NCBI GenBank assembly: GCA_017540945.1
Contig: JAFYAB010000054.1
Location: forward strand, 1 to 7,816
Direction of reading: 5' to 3'
DNA: 7,816 nucleotides
Source of the DNA: Oscillospiraceae bacterium
GTDB lineage: Bacteria > Bacillota_A > Clostridia > Oscillospirales > Oscillospiraceae
Shown: positions 2 through 7,816 of the stretch, piece by piece
Position numbering within the stretch: position 1 is the first letter of the stretch
Layout: each line of letters opens with the position of its first letter
Notes under the pieces: generated by a model
The model's database searches: none
What the model was told of the DNA's origin: nothing
The model's input: only the letters and a program-made list of their open reading frames with translations
Made by a program: the position numbers and the translations under genes

Positions 2-586
2 ACAGCCTGCGCAGACTATGATCTCTGGAATAACACCATGCGTCGCTATGTCAAACGCGGCAGCCACGGCATTGCGTTGCTGGACACATCCAGAGACCGC
101 CCACAGATCAAGTATGTATTTGACGTTTCCGACACCGGCGGTGGGGAGTATTCCCGCCGCCTCAATTTATGGGAATATCGGGACGAGCACTATGCGCCTG
201 TATCGCAGATGCTTTCTGACCGATACGGGATCGACGACGGACGTGGGATCGAGGATCAGGTCAATTCCGTGGTCTCGCAGATGGTTTCTCAGTTTTGGGA
301 TGACAACCTGGGGGACATCTTTGACATCGTTGACGGATCGTACCTTGCCGATTACAATGAATTTGAAATCGGGGTCGCTTTTCGCAGCGCCGCCACCGTC
401 AGCACAACCTATGCCATTCTGGAACGTTGCGGCTTGCACCCGGAAAGCAGGTTCAACTATTACGATTTCCTGTCCGTCTTTGATTTCAACACGCCGAGCG
501 CCGTGTCCATTCTCGGTACCGCGATCAGCCAGATCAGCGAGCGTGTCCTGCGTCAGATCGAAGTCACCATCCGAAACTATGAGCGC
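2..586 (+). other. ArdC-like N-terminal region of the giant protein (partial)
   Basis: Window residues 1-195. The first 30 residues carry an aromatic-rich stretch followed by YVKRGSHGIALLD (16-28). This resembles the V(R/K)KGEKG signature of the ArdC N-terminal single-strand DNA-binding domain, placed just before a beta strand. Next come KYVFDVSDT (36-44) and a helical segment ending in FNTPSAVSILGTAISQISE, the usual opening of large conjugative-element helicase-methylases. The true N-terminus is missing; family members suggest a few tens of residues lie upstream. The ArdC link rests on a short motif and is moderate. Confidence 0.5.
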
Positions 587-3500
587 GAAAAGAGCGCAGA
601 AAGGAGCCAGAGCAATGAGCCTGACCTATCAACAGAACGGGGACTATCTGATCCCCAACCTGGCCGTACAGGAGACCTCCCAGCCCATCGGGAAATACGG
701 GAGGATGCGGAAGAAGTACCTGCAGGAGAACCGACCCCTGCTTTGGAACCAGCTGATCCTGTCCGAAGGCCTGTATCCGCACCTGCTGGAGATCGAGCAG
801 ACCGCGAACGAGAGGCTGGAACGGATGCTCCCGGAAATGGCGGCGAAGGCCGGCGTGACGGAGCGCCTGAAGGCCGAAGACCCGATGAAGTGGGTGGGGC
901 TGATGAACACCGTCAAAGCCCAGGCCGAGGAAATCATCCTGAAGGAACTGATCTTCGCATAGAGCCCGCGCCGGTAGAATTCCGGCAGCAGAGCGGCGAG
1001 CAAATCAGTCTTTTCCCCTCAGAAGAAGAACAAATCCATATCATTCAGGAAGCGGAGAGCGTCACACCGACGCCCTTCGCTTTTTCCATCCCCCAGGAGG
1101 TCATCGACCAATTCCTTCGATATGGCAGCAATTCCGAGCACAGCCGGATGCACCTGGTTACAGAGGTTTCCAAGGGCAAAAACGTTTCCGAGCTCGCGGA
1201 ATACCTCTCCCGGGAATTCCACGGTGGGTATGGCATTGAGGCGGGCGGTGTCAAGTACACGGCGTGGTATGCAGAGGACGGCATCCACATCGCAAAAGGC
1301 ACCGCAGCCCGATATGTATCCTCCGCACAGATCATCCCGTGGGAGGCCGCGGCGACCCGTGTGCAGGAGCTGTATCAGCAGGGACAGCTTTCCACCAATG
1401 TCGAGCTGGCCGAGGCCTCCCGAAACGAGCGCAGCGAGATCGCCTACGCCCTGTTGATGCTTCATCGGGATTTGTCTGAGGAGGCCCGGGATGTCGGCTA
1501 CCTCTCCACCATGCTGCCCATGCAGGGCGGCGGGTTCCCGGAGGAACAGGGCCGTCTGACCGACGCCCTGGGCGAGCCGGAAAAGCTGGACGTGATCGTA
1601 GCGGACTATGAACGCTTCTATGAAGCCCATTCCTATGACCGCGGCCTTCTCCGCTTTCATTATCACAAGCTGGATGTTATACGGCAGGGGCTCCGGGAGC
1701 TTTCTCTGAACCGCGAGTTGATTCCCCAGACGATGGCCGAGCTCCCTCCCCATGCGCCGTTCATCACGGAAGATGAAGTGGATGCAAACCTTGCGCGCCA
1801 CGGCAGCGGCTTCGCCGGTGGAAGGGATCGTATATTCTCGTTTTTCCAACAGCAGCACACGCCGAAGGAAAAGGCGGACTTCCTCAAGCATGAATTTGGA
1901 ACCGGCGGCTGCAGCCATGCGCTCTCCGGCGCAGGCGGCAGTATGCAGGATTACGACAGCAAGGGAATTCGCTACCGCAAAGAGAACTGTCAGCAAGTCA
2001 CACTTTCATGGAGCAAGGTTTCCAAGCGCATTGAGGATCTGATCGCAAAGGACAGGTTTCTCTCAAAGGATGAGCTGTCTTTGGCTGGCGCAGACGCCCA
2101 TGAAGAAGAGGAAATGCCCGCGTTCTGGGCTGAATACGAGGATCTCAAAGACGCCTTCCCGGACAGCATCGTGCTGGTGCAGGTTGGCGATTTCTATGAG
2201 ACCTACGGTGAGGACGCCCGCCGCGCCGCCGCCTTTTTGGACTGGAACGCAACGACCCGTCTGATCCCCGCTGTAGGCCGCGTTGACCTTTGCGGCATTC
2301 CCTCTCACATTCTCAATGACAATGTGGAGAAGCTGCGGGAGCATTGGGATATCGTCATTTCTACGCTGGACAAGGATGGGAACTATGAGACCCGCACGGT
2401 TCAGGCTGCCGAACATGAAACGGAGCAGGCGCAGGTCATCACAGAAACCGAAGAAGCACCTTCGCCGCAAACTCCTGTATCAGAAGAACCCCCCGCCACA
2501 CCCGTCCAGCCTTCCACTCCTGGAGAACCGAGGCCAATGACCGCGGAGGAAATCGACGACGCCCTTCGCGTCTGGAACGGCAGGATCGAAAGTAAACGAG
2601 CTGTGGTCCGCTATATGCAGGAGCATGGCAGGGAACGCGGCACTGCCGCATGGCTGTCCAGAGAGTTCGGTCTTGATCCCCAAACGCCGCTGACGCTGAT
2701 TACGGTGGACGGTATGGGCGAAACAAAGCTCCCGTGGCCCAACGTCCAGCGCCGGATTGCCCAGCTCATCAAGGCGGAGCAGTTCTACACGCAGGAGGAA
2801 TACGACAACCTGGACGATGTGGACCCGATTGCCGTCCGGGAACGGCTGGCGGAGTCCGGCATCGTCAACGGCGAAGTGGTGGACCCGGAGGCGCTGAATA
2901 ACAATCCCTTCATTCAACAGGTGATGGCGGATGCGGATCGTCTCGCGCAGGAAGCGCAGACTGACGCCTTTACGACACCAGGCGGCCTGACCGTCCATGT
3001 GGGAGACGCCGTTGCAATGACTGACGACGAAGGAACAACCATTCGTTTTCAGATTGTGGGCGTTGACACCGACACAGTATCGTATGTCAGCCTGGATTTC
3101 ACCGAGGGACACACCATTTCCCTGGAACGCGGATATTTTGAGCAATATCTGGATGAACACAACGGTGTTGTGGAACGCCAAGAAGTCGAGCAGCCGCAGG
3201 AGGCCGAAGCGGAGCCGGTTCTTTACGAGGATCAGCAATTCGCGCAAAGGAATATCATCCCCGGCGAGACCCATTTCACCGTTGACGGCAGAGATTATCT
3301 GATTACCCAGGCAAATCTGGAAACCGGAATGATTACGTATCGGGACGTCTCCGTTTCTCCGGACTTCACCGGCGAAGTGTTCCGCACAGACAGGATCGAG
3401 ACGGTTCGGAAGCTGATCGAGGAATCCGCGGAGGCAGAAGGCCTGTTCTACACACCGCTTGGCTTTACCTATCGGCTCGGACAAATCCTTGAAGCAAGGT

Positions 3501-6500
3501 TTGAGGACGGCAGTCACCTGATGGACGTCCGGCTCACCAAGGTGGACAACCGAAATGTGTACTACACGCTGCTGGAAGGCCCCGAACAGACCGAAAAGCA
3601 TATCCCGCGCGGACGATTTGACGGGTTTCTGGAAGCTGGGAGAATCGCAGAGAAGTCCCAGGTGGAGGAAAACCCTTGGCCCGTTGACGTCGGCGACACC
3701 GTTTATCTGGAAGACGGAAAGGCTTATATCGTAGAACAGCTATCCGTCAATCACATTCAGCTCCGAGATCCCACGCTGCTCTATCCGATCTTCCGGGCAG
3801 AGAGCTACGAGAGCTTTCAGCGGCTTATGGAGCTGTACCCCCAGCCTGCCGCGGCAGCACAGGAGACGCCGACCGATACTCCCCCTGCCAGGGAAACAGA
3901 ACGGCCGCTGACGGTGGAAACCGTTGCGTTCTATCCTGCCGAAGAAAACAATCTGCCCTTCGACGTGGAGATCCAAACCCTGCGCACCACGCCTCCTGAT
4001 CCTCCCATCCAGACGCCGCCTGAGAACTTCCGTATTACGGATATGCACCTGGGCGAAGGCGGTCCCAAGGCCAAGTTCCGGGCTAATATGGAGGCCATTC
4101 ATACCCTCAAACAGATTGAATCAGAGGGCAGGGCTGCCACGCCGGAGGAGCAGGAAACCCTCTCCCGCTATGTAGGCTGGGGCGGCCTCGCGGACGCCTT
4201 CTACGAAAACAAGTCGGATTGGAGCAAGGAATATCAGGAGCTGAAGGAAGCTCTGACGCCGGAGGAATACACCGCTGCCCGTGCTTCCACGCTCAACGCT
4301 CACTACACCAGCCCCACGGTCATCCAGGCCATTTATGAGGCGGTAGGGCGTATGGGGTTCCAAAGCGGAAACATCCTGGAGCCCTCCATGGGTATCGGCA
4401 ACTTTTTCGGAATGCTGCCCACGGAAATGTCGGATTCCACGCTCTACGGCGTGGAGCTGGACAGCATCACGGGACGGATTGCGAAACAGCTCTATCCTAG
4501 GGCGAATATTACCGTTGCGGGTTTTGAGACCACCGACCGCAAGGACTTCTATGATCTTGCCATCGGCAACGTGCCCTTTGGCAACTACCAGGTCTCAGAC
4601 CGGGCCTATGACAAGCTGGGCTTCTCCATCCACAATTATTTCTTTGCCAAAGCGTTGGATCAGGTGCGTCCGGGCGGCATCGTGGCCTTTGTAACCTCGC
4701 GCTATACGCTGGACAGCAAGGACAGCACTGCCAGGAAGTATCTCGCCCAGCGCGCGGACTTCCTCGGCGCGATCCGTCTGCCAAACAATGCTTTCCGCGC
4801 CAACGCCGGGACGGATGTTGTCTCGGATATTATTATCCTGCAAAAGCGGGACAGGCCTGTAGACCGGGATGAGCCCTGGGTCCACCTTGGCCAGAACGAG
4901 GACGGCTTTGCCGTAAACAGCTACTTCGTCGATCACCCGGAGATGATCCTGGGGCGGCAAACCGCCGAAAGCACCCAATACGGCAAGCAGGATTTCACCG
5001 TTGTCCCCATCGAGGGACTGGAGCTGGGAGACCAGCTGCACGACGCGATAAAGTATATCCGCGGATCTTATGCGGCCGCGGAGCTGCCGGATTTGGGCGA
5101 GGGCGAGGAGGTCCGTGAGACGATCCCTGCCGATCCCAGCGTCAAGAACTACTCCTATACCATCGTCAACGGAGAAATCTACTACCGGGAAAACAGCATC
5201 ATGGTCAAGCCTGAGCTGAATGCCACGGCAAAGGAACGGGTGAAGGGCATGGTGTTCCTGCGGCACTGTATGCAGGAGCTGATCGACCTGCAGATGGACG
5301 AATACTCCTCCGACGCGGACATCGCGGCAAAGCAGGCAGAGCTCAACGATCTCTATGACAATTTCACAGCCCGGTACGGACTCATCAATGACCGGGCCAA
5401 CCGGCTGGCTTTCGCCAGCGACAGCTCCTATTATCTCCTTTGCTCCCTGGAAGTATTGGACGAGAACAACGAGCTGCAGCGCAAGGCGGATTTCTTTACC
5501 AAGCGCACCATCAAGCAGCAGCGCAGCGTGGATCACGTGGACACCGCGGTGGAGGCCCTGGCCGTATCCCTCGGCCAGAAGGCCCGCGTGGATCTGCCCT
5601 TTATGGCCCAGCTCATGGGCGGCGAGGACAGGATTCCGCAGATCGTGGAGGACCTGCACGGCGTCATCTACAAAGACCCGAACACCGGCCCCTTTGACTA
5701 CGCGGACGGCGGAGAGCATTGGAATCAGGGCTGGCAGACGGCGGACGAATACCTTTCCGGCAATGTCCGGCGAAAGCTCCGCACCGCGGAGCGGATCGCG
5801 GAGACCGATCCCTTCTTCCGGGTCAACGCCGAGGCGCTGAAACGGGCCCAGCCCAAGGATCTGGACGCCTCCGAGATCGAGGTCCGCCTCGGCAGCACGT
5901 GGATCGACCCGCAGTATTACCAGGAGTTCATGTATGAGACCTTCAAGACGCCGTATTATATGCGCCGCAGGATCAAGATCAACTACTCTCCCTATACAGC
6001 AGAATGGCAGATCGAAGGAAAGACGGCCACCGGCTACGGTGATTTTGTGGCAAACAATATGTTCGGCACCGACCGGGCCAACGCCTACCGGCTGCTGGAG
6101 GACGCCCTGAACCTCCGGGACATTCGGATCTACGATACCATCGAAGATGCGGACGGCAAGGAAAAGCGCGTTCTGAACGCAAAGGAGACGACCCTGGCGG
6201 CGCAGAAGCAGCAGGCCATCCGGGAGGCGTTCCGGGATTGGATCTGGAAAGACCCCCGTCGCAGAGAAGCCCTTGTCAAGCAGTACAACGAGGAGATGAA
6301 CAGCACCCGTCCCCGGGAATACGACGGAAGTCACCTGGTTTTCAGCGGCATGAACCCGGAAATCACCCTCCGGGAGCATCAGCTCAATGCCGTCGCCCAT
6401 GTGATTTACGGAGGCAATACCCTGCTGGCCCACGAGGTCGGCGCAGGTAAAACATTTGAGATGATCGCCGCTGCGATGGAATCCAAACGCCTCGGCTTGT

Positions 6501-7816
6501 GCAGCAAATCCCTGTTCGTGGTGCCCAACCACCTGACAGATCAGTGGGCAACGGAGTTCCTGCGCCTCTATCCCTCGGCAAATATCCTGGTCACGACCAA
6601 ACGCGACTTTGAGCCGCACAACCGCAAGAAATTTTGTGCCCGCATCGCCACCGGAGATTATGACGCCGTGATCATCGGACACAGTCAGTTCGAGCGCATT
6701 CCCATCAGCTCCGAGCGGCAAATCCGGCTCCTGCAGGAGCAGATCGAGGACATTACCACCGGTATCGAGGAAATGCAGGACAATGACGGCCCCAGCTATT
6801 CCATCAAACAAATGGAAAAGACCAAGCGTTCCTTGGAAGCCCGTCTGAAAAAGCTCCAGGGCGAGGGCCGGAAGGACGATGTGGTCACCTTCGAGCAGTT
6901 AGGCGTTGACCGTCTGTTCGTGGACGAATCGGACAACTATAAAAACCTGTTCCTTTATACCAAAATGCGGAACGTGGCAGGCCTTTCCACCACCGACGCA
7001 CAAAAGTCCTCGGATATGTTTGCCAAGTGCCGCTATATGGACGAGCTTACCGGAGGCCGCGGCATCATCTTCGCCACCGGCACCCCGGTCAGTAATTCGA
7101 TGACAGAGCTCTACACGATCCAGCGGTATCTCCAATATGACCGGCTTCAGGAGCTGGGTATGGGGCATTTCGACTGCTGGGCCTCCCGATTCGGCGAAAC
7201 CACAACAGCGCTGGAGCTGGCCCCGGAGGGCACCGGATACCGAGCTCGGACACGCTTCGCCAAGTTCTTCAACCTCCCGGAGCTGATGAATCTCTTTAAG
7301 GAGGTTGCGGACATCAAGACCGCCGATCAGCTGGACCTTCCCACACCGGAGGTGGAGTATCACACATACGCCTCCAAGCCTACCGAAATCCAGCAGGCAA
7401 TGGTCAAAACCCTTTCGGAACGAGCCTCCAAGGTCCATTCCGGCGCAGTCGATCCCAAGGAGGATAATATGCTGAAGATCACCTCGGACGGGCGCAAGCT
7501 CGGCCTGGATCAGCGGATCATCGACCCCATGCTGCCTGACGACGTAGGCACAAAGGTCAATCAATGCGTCGCCAACATCCTGCAATTCTGGCGTGAGGGC
7601 GAAGATCAGAAACTGACGCAGCTGGTCTTTTGCGATATTTCCACCCCCTCCGCCCGAAGCAAGACCGCTCGGGTGGCGGCGAAATCTCCCAGCACCATTC
7701 TGGACAACCCGGAGATCCGGGCGCTGGAGGACGCCGTTCCTCTGGAGGAAGTATCCGATTCCAGGTTTACGATCTACGAGGATATTCGCCGGAAGCTCAT
7801 TGAGGGCGGGATGCCC
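2..7816 (+). CDS. Giant ICE-type ArdC-like / MutS-I-like / N6-adenine methylase / SNF2 helicase protein, partial at both ends
   Basis: One uninterrupted frame of 2605 codons fills the window; both its start and its stop lie outside. The architecture matches the very large LtrC-like methylase-helicase proteins of Clostridia conjugative elements. In order: ArdC-like region (1-195), disordered linker (196-340), repeated helical modules, MutS domain I-like segment (705-800), beta-rich modules (996-1279), adenine methyltransferase (1357-1620), connector (1716-2110) and SF2 helicase (2117 to the end). Methylase motif I is EPSMGIGNFFG (1460-1470) and motif IV is NVPFG (1523-1527). Helicase motifs are Walker A GAGKT (2147-2151), motif II DESD (2308-2311) and motif III ATGTP (2358-2362). 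Motifs V and VI are not in the window. No signal peptide or membrane segment is visible, so it is probably cytoplasmic. A role in modifying or remodelling element DNA during transfer, possibly antirestriction as for phage P1 DarB, is inferred. The domain calls are firmer than the biological role. Confidence 0.93.
599..606 (+). promoter_or_regulatory. Shine-Dalgarno sequence for nested tnpV
   Basis: GAAAGGAG lies eight bases before the ATG at 615. This is close to an ideal ribosome binding site for a Gram-positive host. It sits inside the coding region of the giant gene, where no such signal is needed, so it independently supports translation of tnpV and fixes its start. Confidence 0.82.
615..962 (+). 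CDS. tnpV: TnpV family transposon-encoded protein, nested in another frame of the giant gene
   Basis: A complete 115-residue protein, the usual TnpV size, named after the tnpV gene of Tn4451-type clostridial transposons. Family hallmarks are GDYLIPNL (9-16), GKYGRMRKKYL (26-36), ENRPLL (38-43), LYPHLLEIE (53-61), MKWVGLMN (91-98) and the helical tail AEEIILKEL (104-112). The ATG at 615 is chosen because the family begins here and a strong Shine-Dalgarno sequence precedes it by eight bases. The same frame is open upstream to an ATG at 18, but that stretch is only the shadow of the giant gene. The frame is +1 relative to the giant CDS, which reads through the whole of tnpV as a low-complexity linker. 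Third codon positions here are mostly G or C, as expected of a real gene. The protein is small and mainly helical. A DNA-binding or accessory role in the element is only suspected. It must be translated by internal initiation, since the enclosing frame does not stop. Confidence 0.87.
   Translation: MSLTYQQNGDYLIPNLAVQETSQPIGKYGRMRKKYLQENRPLLWNQLILSEGLYPHLLEIEQTANERLERMLPEMAAKAGVTERLKAEDPMKWVGLMNTVKAQAEEIILKELIFA
1001..1015 (+). other. Candidate sliding-clamp binding peptide QISLF
   Basis: Residues 334-338 read QISLF, within EQISLFPSEEEQ at the end of the disordered linker. The consensus bacterial beta-clamp binding pentapeptide is QL(S/D)LF, so this differs only by Leu to Ile at position 2. 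An exposed position between a disordered segment and an acidic stretch is typical of such motifs. Function is inferred from the motif alone. Confidence 0.45.
1112..1390 (+). repeat. Helical module, copy 1 of 3 in the giant protein
   Basis: Residues 371-463. The copy has LAEYLSREFH (398-407), then a beta-rich centre (KYTAWYAEDGIHI), then IIPWEAAATRVQEL. The order Leu-x-x-Glu-Phe, beta hairpin, hydrophobic-Pro/Ser-Trp and a helix with Val/Arg is shared with the modules at 1832-2077 and 2570-2818. This copy is the most divergent in its helix. Confidence 0.6.
1832..2077 (+). repeat. Helical module, copy 2 of 3 in the giant protein
   Basis: Residues 611-692. It contains EKADFLKHEFG, a glycine-rich turn (GTGGCSHALSGAGGS), KGIRYRKEN and LSWSKVSKRIEDLIAKDRFL. 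It aligns with copy 3 across LSWSKVSKRIEDLI against LPWPNVQRRIAQLI. The preceding segment, FITEDEVDANLARHGSG, is a conserved lead-in for this family of element proteins. Confidence 0.65.
2114..2400 (+). other. MutS domain I-like segment of the giant protein
   Basis: Residues about 705-800. The order AEYEDLKDAFPDSIVLVQ, then GDFYETYGEDARRAA (729-743), then LTTR-like TTRLIPAVGRV, then LCGIPSH (763-769) and VEKLREHWDIVIS follows the N-terminal mismatch-recognition domain of MutS, where the usual forms are MGDFYE.F.DDA and P(M)CGVPYH. The Phe-X-Glu pair that contacts the mismatched base in MutS is present as F731-Y-E733. The other MutS domains (clamp, ATPase) are absent, so this is a borrowed DNA-binding module and not a repair protein. 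Confidence 0.72.
2450..2539 (+). other. Proline-rich interdomain linker
   Basis: Residues about 817-846, between the MutS-like segment and module copy 3, are rich in Pro, Glu, Ser and Thr (TPVSEEPPATPVQPSTPGEP). It is probably flexible. Similar Pro-rich spacers occur at residues 1280-1300 (PQPAAAAQETPTDTPP) and 1330-1342 (TTPPDPPIQTPPE), bracketing the methylase from the beta-rich modules. Confidence 0.65.
2570..2818 (+). repeat. Helical module, copy 3 of 3 in the giant protein
   Basis: Residues 857-939. It contains SKRAVVRYMQEHGRERGTA, WLSREFG (884-890) and LPWPNVQRRIAQLI, ending in FYTQEEYDNLDD. The distance from the Phe of LSREF to the Trp of the PW motif is 23 residues, against 41 in copy 1 and 38 in copy 2, so the central hairpin is shortened. 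Confidence 0.65.
2987..3838 (+). repeat. Four short beta-rich modules in tandem in the giant protein
   Basis: Residues 996-1279. Four units of about 55-60 residues share one plan: a beta-strand opening with VGD or a similar turn, more strands, and a closing helix after an Arg/Phe/Tyr-rich point. They are 996-1053 (VHVGDAV to RGYFEQYLDEH), 1088-1142 (THFTVDGRDYLI to DRIETVRKLIEES), 1154-1215 (YRLGQILEARF to RGRFDGFLEAGRI) and 1226-1279 (VDVGDTVYLEDG to AESYESFQRLMELY). Sequence identity between units is low and the second is the least certain. They could be small DNA- or protein-binding barrels; no function is claimed. Confidence 0.5.
4070..4858 (+). other. N6-adenine DNA methyltransferase domain of the giant protein
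   Basis: Residues about 1357-1620. A lead-in KFRANMEAIHTL and the family signature SRYVGWGGLADAF are followed by NAHYTSP (about 1437-1443), SAM-binding motif I EPSMGIGNFFG (1460-1470), an acidic motif II YGVELD and catalytic motif IV GNVPFGNY (1522-1529). After that come FIHNYFF-like NYFFAKALDQVRPGGIVAFVTS and LGAIRLPNNAF. This is the gamma-like order of N6-adenine methylases. Motif IV is N-V-P-F where typical enzymes have N-P-P-Y/F; the Asn, second Pro and Phe are kept, so activity is plausible. No separate target-recognition domain is obvious. Confidence 0.85.
5147..6340 (+). other. Family-specific connector between methylase and helicase
   Basis: Residues about 1716-2113. It begins with SYTIVNGEIYYRENSIM and a helical, partly coiled-coil-like stretch (MQELIDLQMDEY, KQAELNDLYDNFTARYG), followed by NDRANRLAF and KADFFTKRTI. 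The second half has DEYLSGNVRRKLR (1915-1927) and VRLGSTWI (1961-1968), both characteristic of conjugative-element methylase-helicase proteins, then ETFKTPYYMRRRIKINY. No catalytic motif is visible. It probably positions the methylase against the helicase core. Confidence 0.6.
6347..7816 (+). other. SF2 (SNF2-like) helicase/translocase domain, truncated by the window end
   Basis: Residues about 2117-2605. Motifs in order: Q-like LREHQLNAV (2123-2131), Walker A HEVGAGKTFEM (2144-2154), Ia FVVPNHLTDQW (from 2172), motif II VDESDNYKNL (2307-2316), motif III FATGTPVSNS (2357-2366), and motif IV LVFCDISTP (2541-2549) opening the second RecA lobe. Motif III TGTP and the Ia form are SNF2-like. Motif II is DESD, not DEAH. 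An insertion with coiled-coil character separates Ia from II. Motifs V and VI, with the arginine finger, would lie past base 7816. Confidence 0.9.
6716..6859 (+). other. Coiled-coil insertion within the helicase first lobe
   Basis: Residues 2239-2286. Two charged amphipathic helices (RQIRLLQEQIEDITTGIEEM and QMEKTKRSLEARLKKLQ) are broken by DNDGPSY, forming a probable helical hairpin just before motif II. It is the sort of lever that can contact DNA or a partner in SNF2-like translocases. Confidence 0.6.

Follow-up and report, generated by a model that had tools for sequence, protein, structure and literature searches.

tnpV genes nested out of frame within DarB-like giant genes: a stretch of DNA that seems long maintained as coding for two proteins

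A complete tnpV gene lies inside a giant DarB-like methylase–helicase gene, on the same strand and in a shifted frame, in the 7816 nt stretch of DNA analysed here (the window). This nesting is the usual arrangement in the gene family sampled and is not peculiar to one locus. On the comparative evidence below, both frames are under selection, and the single stretch of DNA seems long to have been maintained as coding for two proteins.

The nested gene occupies positions 615–962 (+) of the window, with its ATG at 615–617 and its stop codon at 960–962. The 115 aa product is a full-length TnpV (Pfam PF14198, E 1e-41; 141.8 bits against a cut-off of 27, covering positions 1–111 of the 111 in the profile). 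The giant frame runs from base 2 to base 7816 (+), uninterrupted for 2605 codons and open at both window ends, and spans all of tnpV, such that position 1 of each giant codon is position 3 of a tnpV codon. Across the tnpV stretch of the window, the remaining forward frame is interrupted by 11 stops. A Shine–Dalgarno sequence, AAAGGAG, at 600–606 (+) precedes the tnpV ATG by eight bases and would direct internal initiation at 615. Read in the giant frame, GAA AGG here encodes Glu-Arg. An earlier note on the window had described an intact tnpV within a giant open frame and a Shine–Dalgarno sequence ahead of it, and both observations hold.

The N-terminal domain of the giant occupies 2–613 (+). 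Its first ~55 residues are absent, since the start, as judged from full-length relatives, lies upstream of base 1 and outside the window. The giant-frame reading of the overlap (614–961, +) is a putative linker with many Pro, Glu, Arg and Gly residues; in a close relative it is predicted to be disordered. Downstream are a MutS_I domain (2126–2344, +; Pfam E 1.2e-12), a methyltransferase region (4292–4867, +; mad2 methyltransferase model E 1e-10, with an Eco57I match of E 0.0022 that is under the cut-off) and an SNF2-related helicase domain (6416–6691, +; Pfam E 2.1e-9), and residues 1334–2605 match PHROG 10089, DarB-like antirestriction, with E 0. By these matches the giant is a DarB-like methylase–SNF2 polyvalent antirestriction protein, for which protection against restriction is predicted. 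DarB shields phage P1 DNA in cis from type I restriction (PMC5512222). The giant resembles the DarB-dyad polyvalent proteins, which combine a methylase, an SNF2-type helicase and MutS-I in mobile DNA, including that of Firmicutes (PMC5512222), but differs from those described in carrying a nested gene in addition; the terms TnpV, overlap and out-of-frame do not occur in the main text of that paper. Antisense to the giant, a 738 aa open frame at 4595–6811 (–) is probably a by-product of the giant's codon make-up.

A fully nested gene had been considered uncommon outside phages in the earlier note. The gene-in-gene structure stands but its rarity does not, since nesting is the norm in the sampled family and is seemingly found also in phage DarB genes. 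Scanning contigs with the window's TnpV yielded 24 loci, 17 of them with the giant frame open through tnpV (counting as open L012, where the giant frame runs only 118 aa). A wider survey, reduced from 111 to 92 distinct TnpV genes by removal of duplicates and of matches covering few profile positions, found the giant frame open in 41 and interrupted by 1 to 11 stops in 51, and the other forward frame open in none (4 to 19 stops). After two named plasmid loci were added and a minimum length was required of the giant frame, 42 of 94 tnpV genes are nested and 52 are standalone. TnpV is present in 106/291 genomes sampled from one class and in 20/299 sampled from a phylum; the giant N-terminal domain is present in 61/291 genomes sampled from one class (79 matches listed). 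Two genomes (G003 and G004) contain 18 and 23 TnpV matches, fragments included.

The position of tnpV was also examined from the side of the giant, in 60 of the 79 listed N-terminal-domain matches, which were chosen after TnpV positions had been seen. The N-terminal profile extended into later parts of the giant, and its matches, here as in the further helicase regions and named plasmids below, are not always the N-terminal domain itself. Of these 60 giants, 59 have a TnpV-like ORF whose position and frame match those in the window (in L157 the contig ends within the ORF); 58 keep the giant frame open across tnpV, and one more keeps it open as far as the contig end. In 14 of the 59 the match to TnpV is weaker (E 1e-4 to 1e-19, ORFs of 92–157 aa), and 12 of these 14 have a Shine–Dalgarno match of at least five bases. 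Some sampled giants are broken further downstream, yet span tnpV. Frequent stops in one frame of the homologues, which the earlier note had named as evidence against a double reading, are thus the opposite of what was found. The sole giant among the 60 without a TnpV-like ORF is L187 (giant ORF of 3143 aa), where the linker, measured by eye on the alignment, is ~35 residues versus ~115 in the others. Among 20 further helicase regions, the same frame contains a TnpV-like ORF (E 1e-9 to 1e-29) in seven giants (L204, L205, L207–L211), mostly more distant ones. Neither a TnpV-like ORF nor an N-terminal domain is seen in giants L206 and L212 or in the short methylase–helicases L214–L220, and the remaining four regions are fragments. 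Because L187 lacks tnpV and 52 of the 94 tnpV genes are unnested, neither protein strictly requires its counterpart. The first 480 residues of the giant have 6798 matches in the database; nesting itself was examined in about a hundred loci.

The test at synonymous sites that the earlier note had proposed reveals constraint in each frame. In the giant frame, fourfold-site differences are 0.56 upstream of the overlap, 0.06 within it and 0.56 downstream (70 pairs with N-terminal identity of 0.65–0.75; pairs between giants are not independent), and the dip is present in all six identity bands of 0.45 and above. Within the overlap, these giant-frame fourfold sites are tnpV second positions. Selection on the giant reading is seen in the tnpV genes themselves. 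Giant-frame stops number 0 in 40 nested tnpV genes against 2.37 expected from synonymous codon shuffling, compared with 5.2 observed and 6.1 expected in 48 standalone genes. At the fourfold third positions of tnpV, where the giant codon begins, nested genes have G at 0.57 and T at 0.07, and the 48 standalone genes have 30% G and 19% T; when contig GC is matched at 0.45–0.55, the G/T values are 0.57/0.07 for 25 nested genes versus 0.33/0.15 for 13 standalone genes. The fourfold divergence of tnpV is lower for nested than for standalone pairs in every identity band filled by both, a difference for which composition partly accounts (saturation at 0.60 nested versus 0.74 standalone). Finally, similarity in the giant frame exceeds that of synonymous shuffles, with z 8.8 at 30–45% TnpV identity, where standalone controls give –0.7, and z 14.3 at 45–60%, where the controls reach 4.0 and the test therefore includes some shared ancestry. 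Genes from L012, L024, L096, L098 (two) and L100 were removed before the divergence and shuffling tests. Three features expected of a functional overlapping gene pair are present: both frames are open in relatives, each shows purifying selection, and the inner gene has its own conserved initiation signal.

Internal initiation, as suggested in the earlier note, is supported by this signal and by codon choice. The start is ATG in 89 of 90 nested loci, and at least five bases of AAAGGAGG lie just before it in 86 of the 90, with a start picker that favoured Shine–Dalgarno matches. In 67 of the 74 loci with a strong TnpV, the giant has Arg four codons ahead of the tnpV start, and the codon is AGG in all 67; elsewhere in the N-terminal domain AGG makes up 13.3% of 1079 Arg codons. 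Given this difference, selection at the Shine–Dalgarno sequence seems to act on the bases, beyond the residue, with the qualification that the loci share ancestry.

The demands of the two readings on protein structure appear to be complementary. TnpV retains its invariant residues, and an AlphaFold2 model (pLDDT 86) has a beta hairpin followed by helices. The N-terminal 560 residues of the L004 giant, modelled by AlphaFold2 with 13 sequences, have a mean pLDDT of 62, but nearly all of residues 258–415 fall below 50 (mostly 26–39), flanked by better predicted parts, and the overlap (residues 259–377) is inside this stretch. The giant's reading of the overlap thus looks like a disordered linker, which could bear being dictated by a second gene; the other reading is a predicted folded TnpV.

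Nesting is also found on named plasmids. In eight of 12 such loci, selected from match lists, tnpV is nested in frame: in Cohnella herbarum, Monoglobus (two), Anaerococcus prevotii DSM 20548, Streptococcus agalactiae, Virgibacillus, Enterococcus wangshanyuanii and Selenomonas, which represent the classes Bacilli, Clostridia, Tissierellia and Negativicutes. In Aerococcus tenax (L225), tnpV is within the N-terminal ORF and the giant is split directly after it. Pusillibacter (L112) and Campylobacter coli (L113) have a standalone TnpV with four giant-frame stops each, and in Lactococcus garvieae (L227) neither TnpV nor the N-terminal domain was found. Nesting accounts for gaps in annotation, as records retain TnpV or the giant, or shorten the giant. 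The A. prevotii record (L224) has the giant alone, as one protein across the overlap; those of Selenomonas (L230) and one Monoglobus (L231) have TnpV and a giant beginning downstream of it; and those of Cohnella (L110) and the other Monoglobus (L111) have TnpV without a giant, in a PLSDB table that omits pseudogenes. The giants of L110 and L111 both change frame towards the C terminus, at a different place in each.

The nesting apparently extends to phage DarB genes. Fourteen phage loci were studied, 13 DarB-like and P1 itself. In 11 the best TnpV-profile match is inside the giant and in the same frame, 163–366 codons before the matched methylase core, with E values from 2.9e-6 to 0.59 (below 0.05 in 10); off-target matches on both strands of six phage loci gave nothing below E 0.64. 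In P1 darB, the TnpV profile found no TnpV-like ORF. A nested ORF is present in 10 of the 14 loci. In the eleventh, Sinorhizobium phage PBC5 (L242), the giant is split: its upstream half enters the nested frame and ends with the TnpV-like stretch, and its downstream half forms an overlapping ORF of its own. The split may be either a frameshift or a hint at the overlap's origin. The ten phage ORFs start with ATG after purine-rich stretches (starts chosen by hand). A profile built from them re-finds its members at 1.7e-29 to 8.5e-51, partly by construction, and matches PBC5, which is absent from the profile, at 4.2e-37.

Constraint in the phage overlaps resembles that in Bacillota. Fourfold differences are lower in the overlap than in both flanks in 30 of 32 pairs with an aligned overlap (four more pairs are without one; L242, L244 and three loci without an ORF were excluded), for example 0.31/0.08/0.25 (upstream/overlap/downstream) between two Erwinia phages and 0.56/0.11/0.49 between a Klebsiella and an Erwinia phage. 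The pairs L233–L243 (0.71/0.70/0.64) and L240–L241 (0.49/0.50/0.55) have no dip. In a Pfam search with five of the phage ORFs, TnpV was the sole family for two (E 1.8e-4 and 0.0035, under the cut-off), two had no match and one had another weak match; as the best TnpV score for a phage ORF is 21.9 bits, below the cut-off of 27 for family membership, these ORFs are named only TnpV-like. When profiles were compared, the phage ORFs matched TnpV with a probability of 61% in local mode (P 8e-5) and of 29% in global mode (P 1e-4). In PHROGs, all five phage ORFs match the terminal part of phrog_938, a family named endolysin; the matched part is probably the tail of a split giant like that of PBC5. Six of the ten phage loci show the motif YVGWGG close to the start of the methylase, 55–80 residues past the nested ORF; the distance is 109 in the Bacillota giant L185 and up to 1191 in other giants bearing the motif.

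How might the two readings be used? In ribosomes translating the giant, the overlap would be read as a disordered linker that connects the N-terminal domain to the remainder of the polyvalent protein. Other ribosomes would begin within the same transcript, at the ATG at 615 behind the Shine–Dalgarno sequence at 600–606, to produce folded TnpV, so that TnpV would be made from the giant's mRNA. Because the small gene moves inside the giant's gene, perhaps in phages too, TnpV is most likely a co-produced partner of the giant, and we favour the view that this internally initiated protein acts at the giant's step, the protection or establishment of incoming mobile DNA. Taken together, dual coding, an internal start, a partner role for TnpV and an old overlap with standalone escapees form an explanation that we consider very likely.

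Other readings of the arrangement have to be set against these data. An untranslated ORF could be preserved in the giant solely by constraint on the giant protein, and some giant-frame constraint does exist within the overlap. However, the giant's synonymous sites are nearly frozen inside tnpV only, which constraint on the giant protein does not explain, AGG is used at the Shine–Dalgarno sequence wherever Arg is read, and TnpV also exists as a standalone gene, mostly with its own ribosome-binding site, making this reading extremely improbable. The opposite view takes the giant frame through tnpV as incidental, with the N-terminal domain and the methylase–helicase as two genes flanking tnpV. 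It is in keeping with the Selenomonas and Monoglobus records that start the giant after TnpV, and with the giants split near the overlap in Aerococcus and phage PBC5. It is nevertheless hard to reconcile with a giant frame that is open through tnpV in nearly all of the 60 loci, with the lack of stops, the G-rich giant first positions and the giant-frame similarity above shuffles, or with the annotation of the A. prevotii giant as a single protein across the overlap, and is highly improbable. The overlap places both products on one transcript, and starts at tnpV might therefore serve chiefly to regulate synthesis of the giant, by lowering or pacing it, rather than to supply a partner. The invariant residues of TnpV, its confidently predicted fold and its standalone copies point instead to a function of the protein, and leave the regulatory use with a slim chance of being the main one.

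The overlap is probably old. TnpV identity is correlated with identity in both the N-terminal domain (rho 0.79, permutation maximum 0.37) and the core (rho 0.78, permutation maximum 0.27) of the giant in 49 giants, those without a sufficiently long core having been removed from the 60. In a tree of the core, made after removing four fragments and rooted on the short methylase–helicases, nested giants are on both sides of the deepest giant split. Neither the N-terminal domain nor TnpV is present in L212, a long branch at the base, or in L206, which is placed inside. Since L187 is placed within the nested giants (support 82–84), its lack of tnpV is probably a secondary loss. In the TnpV tree, which omits duplicates and proteins below 90 aa, has 119 columns and a midpoint root and is weakly resolved, the main group of standalone genes arises among nested ones, with some standalone rows scattered there, and the TnpV trees contain 8 and 7 changes between standalone and nested. 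On this tree, weakly resolved as it is, the standalone genes are probably copies that escaped the overlap. Nine standalone genes near nested ones, picked after the tree was seen, have a fourfold G of 0.44, against 0.55 for nested and 0.26 for other standalone genes; such an intermediate composition would fit escaped copies with a fading trace of their former overlap.

The name tnpV hints at a different history, a transposition gene placed in a helicase. TnpV would then be an earlier transposon protein, an excisionase, whose gene was inserted in or captured by the giant, the linker being its out-of-frame reading. An excision role has been postulated for the TnpV of Tn4451 by homology with lambda Xis, and tnpV is reported in elements bearing large serine recombinases (PMC3158075); the standalone tnpV of the Campylobacter plasmid follows a recombinase gene, the L187 giant has a short linker and no tnpV, and forcing all standalone tnpV into one clade is not firmly rejected (p-AU 0.081, eight long-branch rows being further dropped for this test). 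Against capture are the identical place and frame in all nested lineages found, the nested members flanking the deepest giant split (in a rooted tree that also has the long-branch L212 at its base), the branching of the main standalone group within nested genes (with a midpoint root and few columns) and the nine standalone genes of intermediate composition among them. The evidence leans to an old overlap with escapees, and capture appears unlikely, though it retains some weight. For this old overlap, a more specific history can be offered tentatively: the nested gene may be original to the DarB-type gene and older than the split between mobile elements of Bacillota and phages of Pseudomonadota and cyanobacteria, with TnpV either overprinted or fused by a frameshift and its frame kept since, and with the standalone TnpV of transposons as escapees. 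The postulated role in excision may be a later use by standalone copies.

Some precedents exist for parts of this arrangement. The window's protein belongs, at full length, to the same family as Tn4451 TnpV, which is treated as an ordinary gene product in the available part of its description (PMC3158075), whereas the window's tnpV is nested in another gene. In Bacillus subtilis, comS, which serves competence, lies in a distinct reading frame within srfAB (PMC12915044), and is similarly a gene for a small protein inside a giant enzyme gene; unlike comS, tnpV encodes a 115 aa Pfam family, in an unrelated giant, across several Bacillota classes and apparently phages. Phage P1 iddB, inside ddrB, is an annotated gene-in-gene near antirestriction genes, but is on the strand opposite ddrB, and the host gene differs. 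In Streptococcus suis ICEs, TnpV-bearing cargo elements are reported inserted inside an snf2 gene (PMC9815147). Nesting of tnpV in the giant is undescribed in the accessible portions of the open-licence literature on tnpV, DarB antirestriction, overlapping genes and polyvalent proteins. It provides a recurring nested gene in a giant family of thousands, and selection at the protein level can be measured in either frame; the pair could serve as a model for the birth, upkeep and leaving of overlapping genes, and points to a small putative partner of DarB-type antirestriction proteins.

The surroundings of standalone tnpV genes vary. Those of L003, L008, L010 and L012 are close kin of nested genes, and no adjoining recombinase or giant was seen by eye in the listed stretches. 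In L078, L088 and L113, tnpV is directly 3′ of a recombinase gene (annotated in L113, judged by eye in the others), and in L113, the Campylobacter coli plasmid, the recombinase gene and tnpV overlap by four bases.
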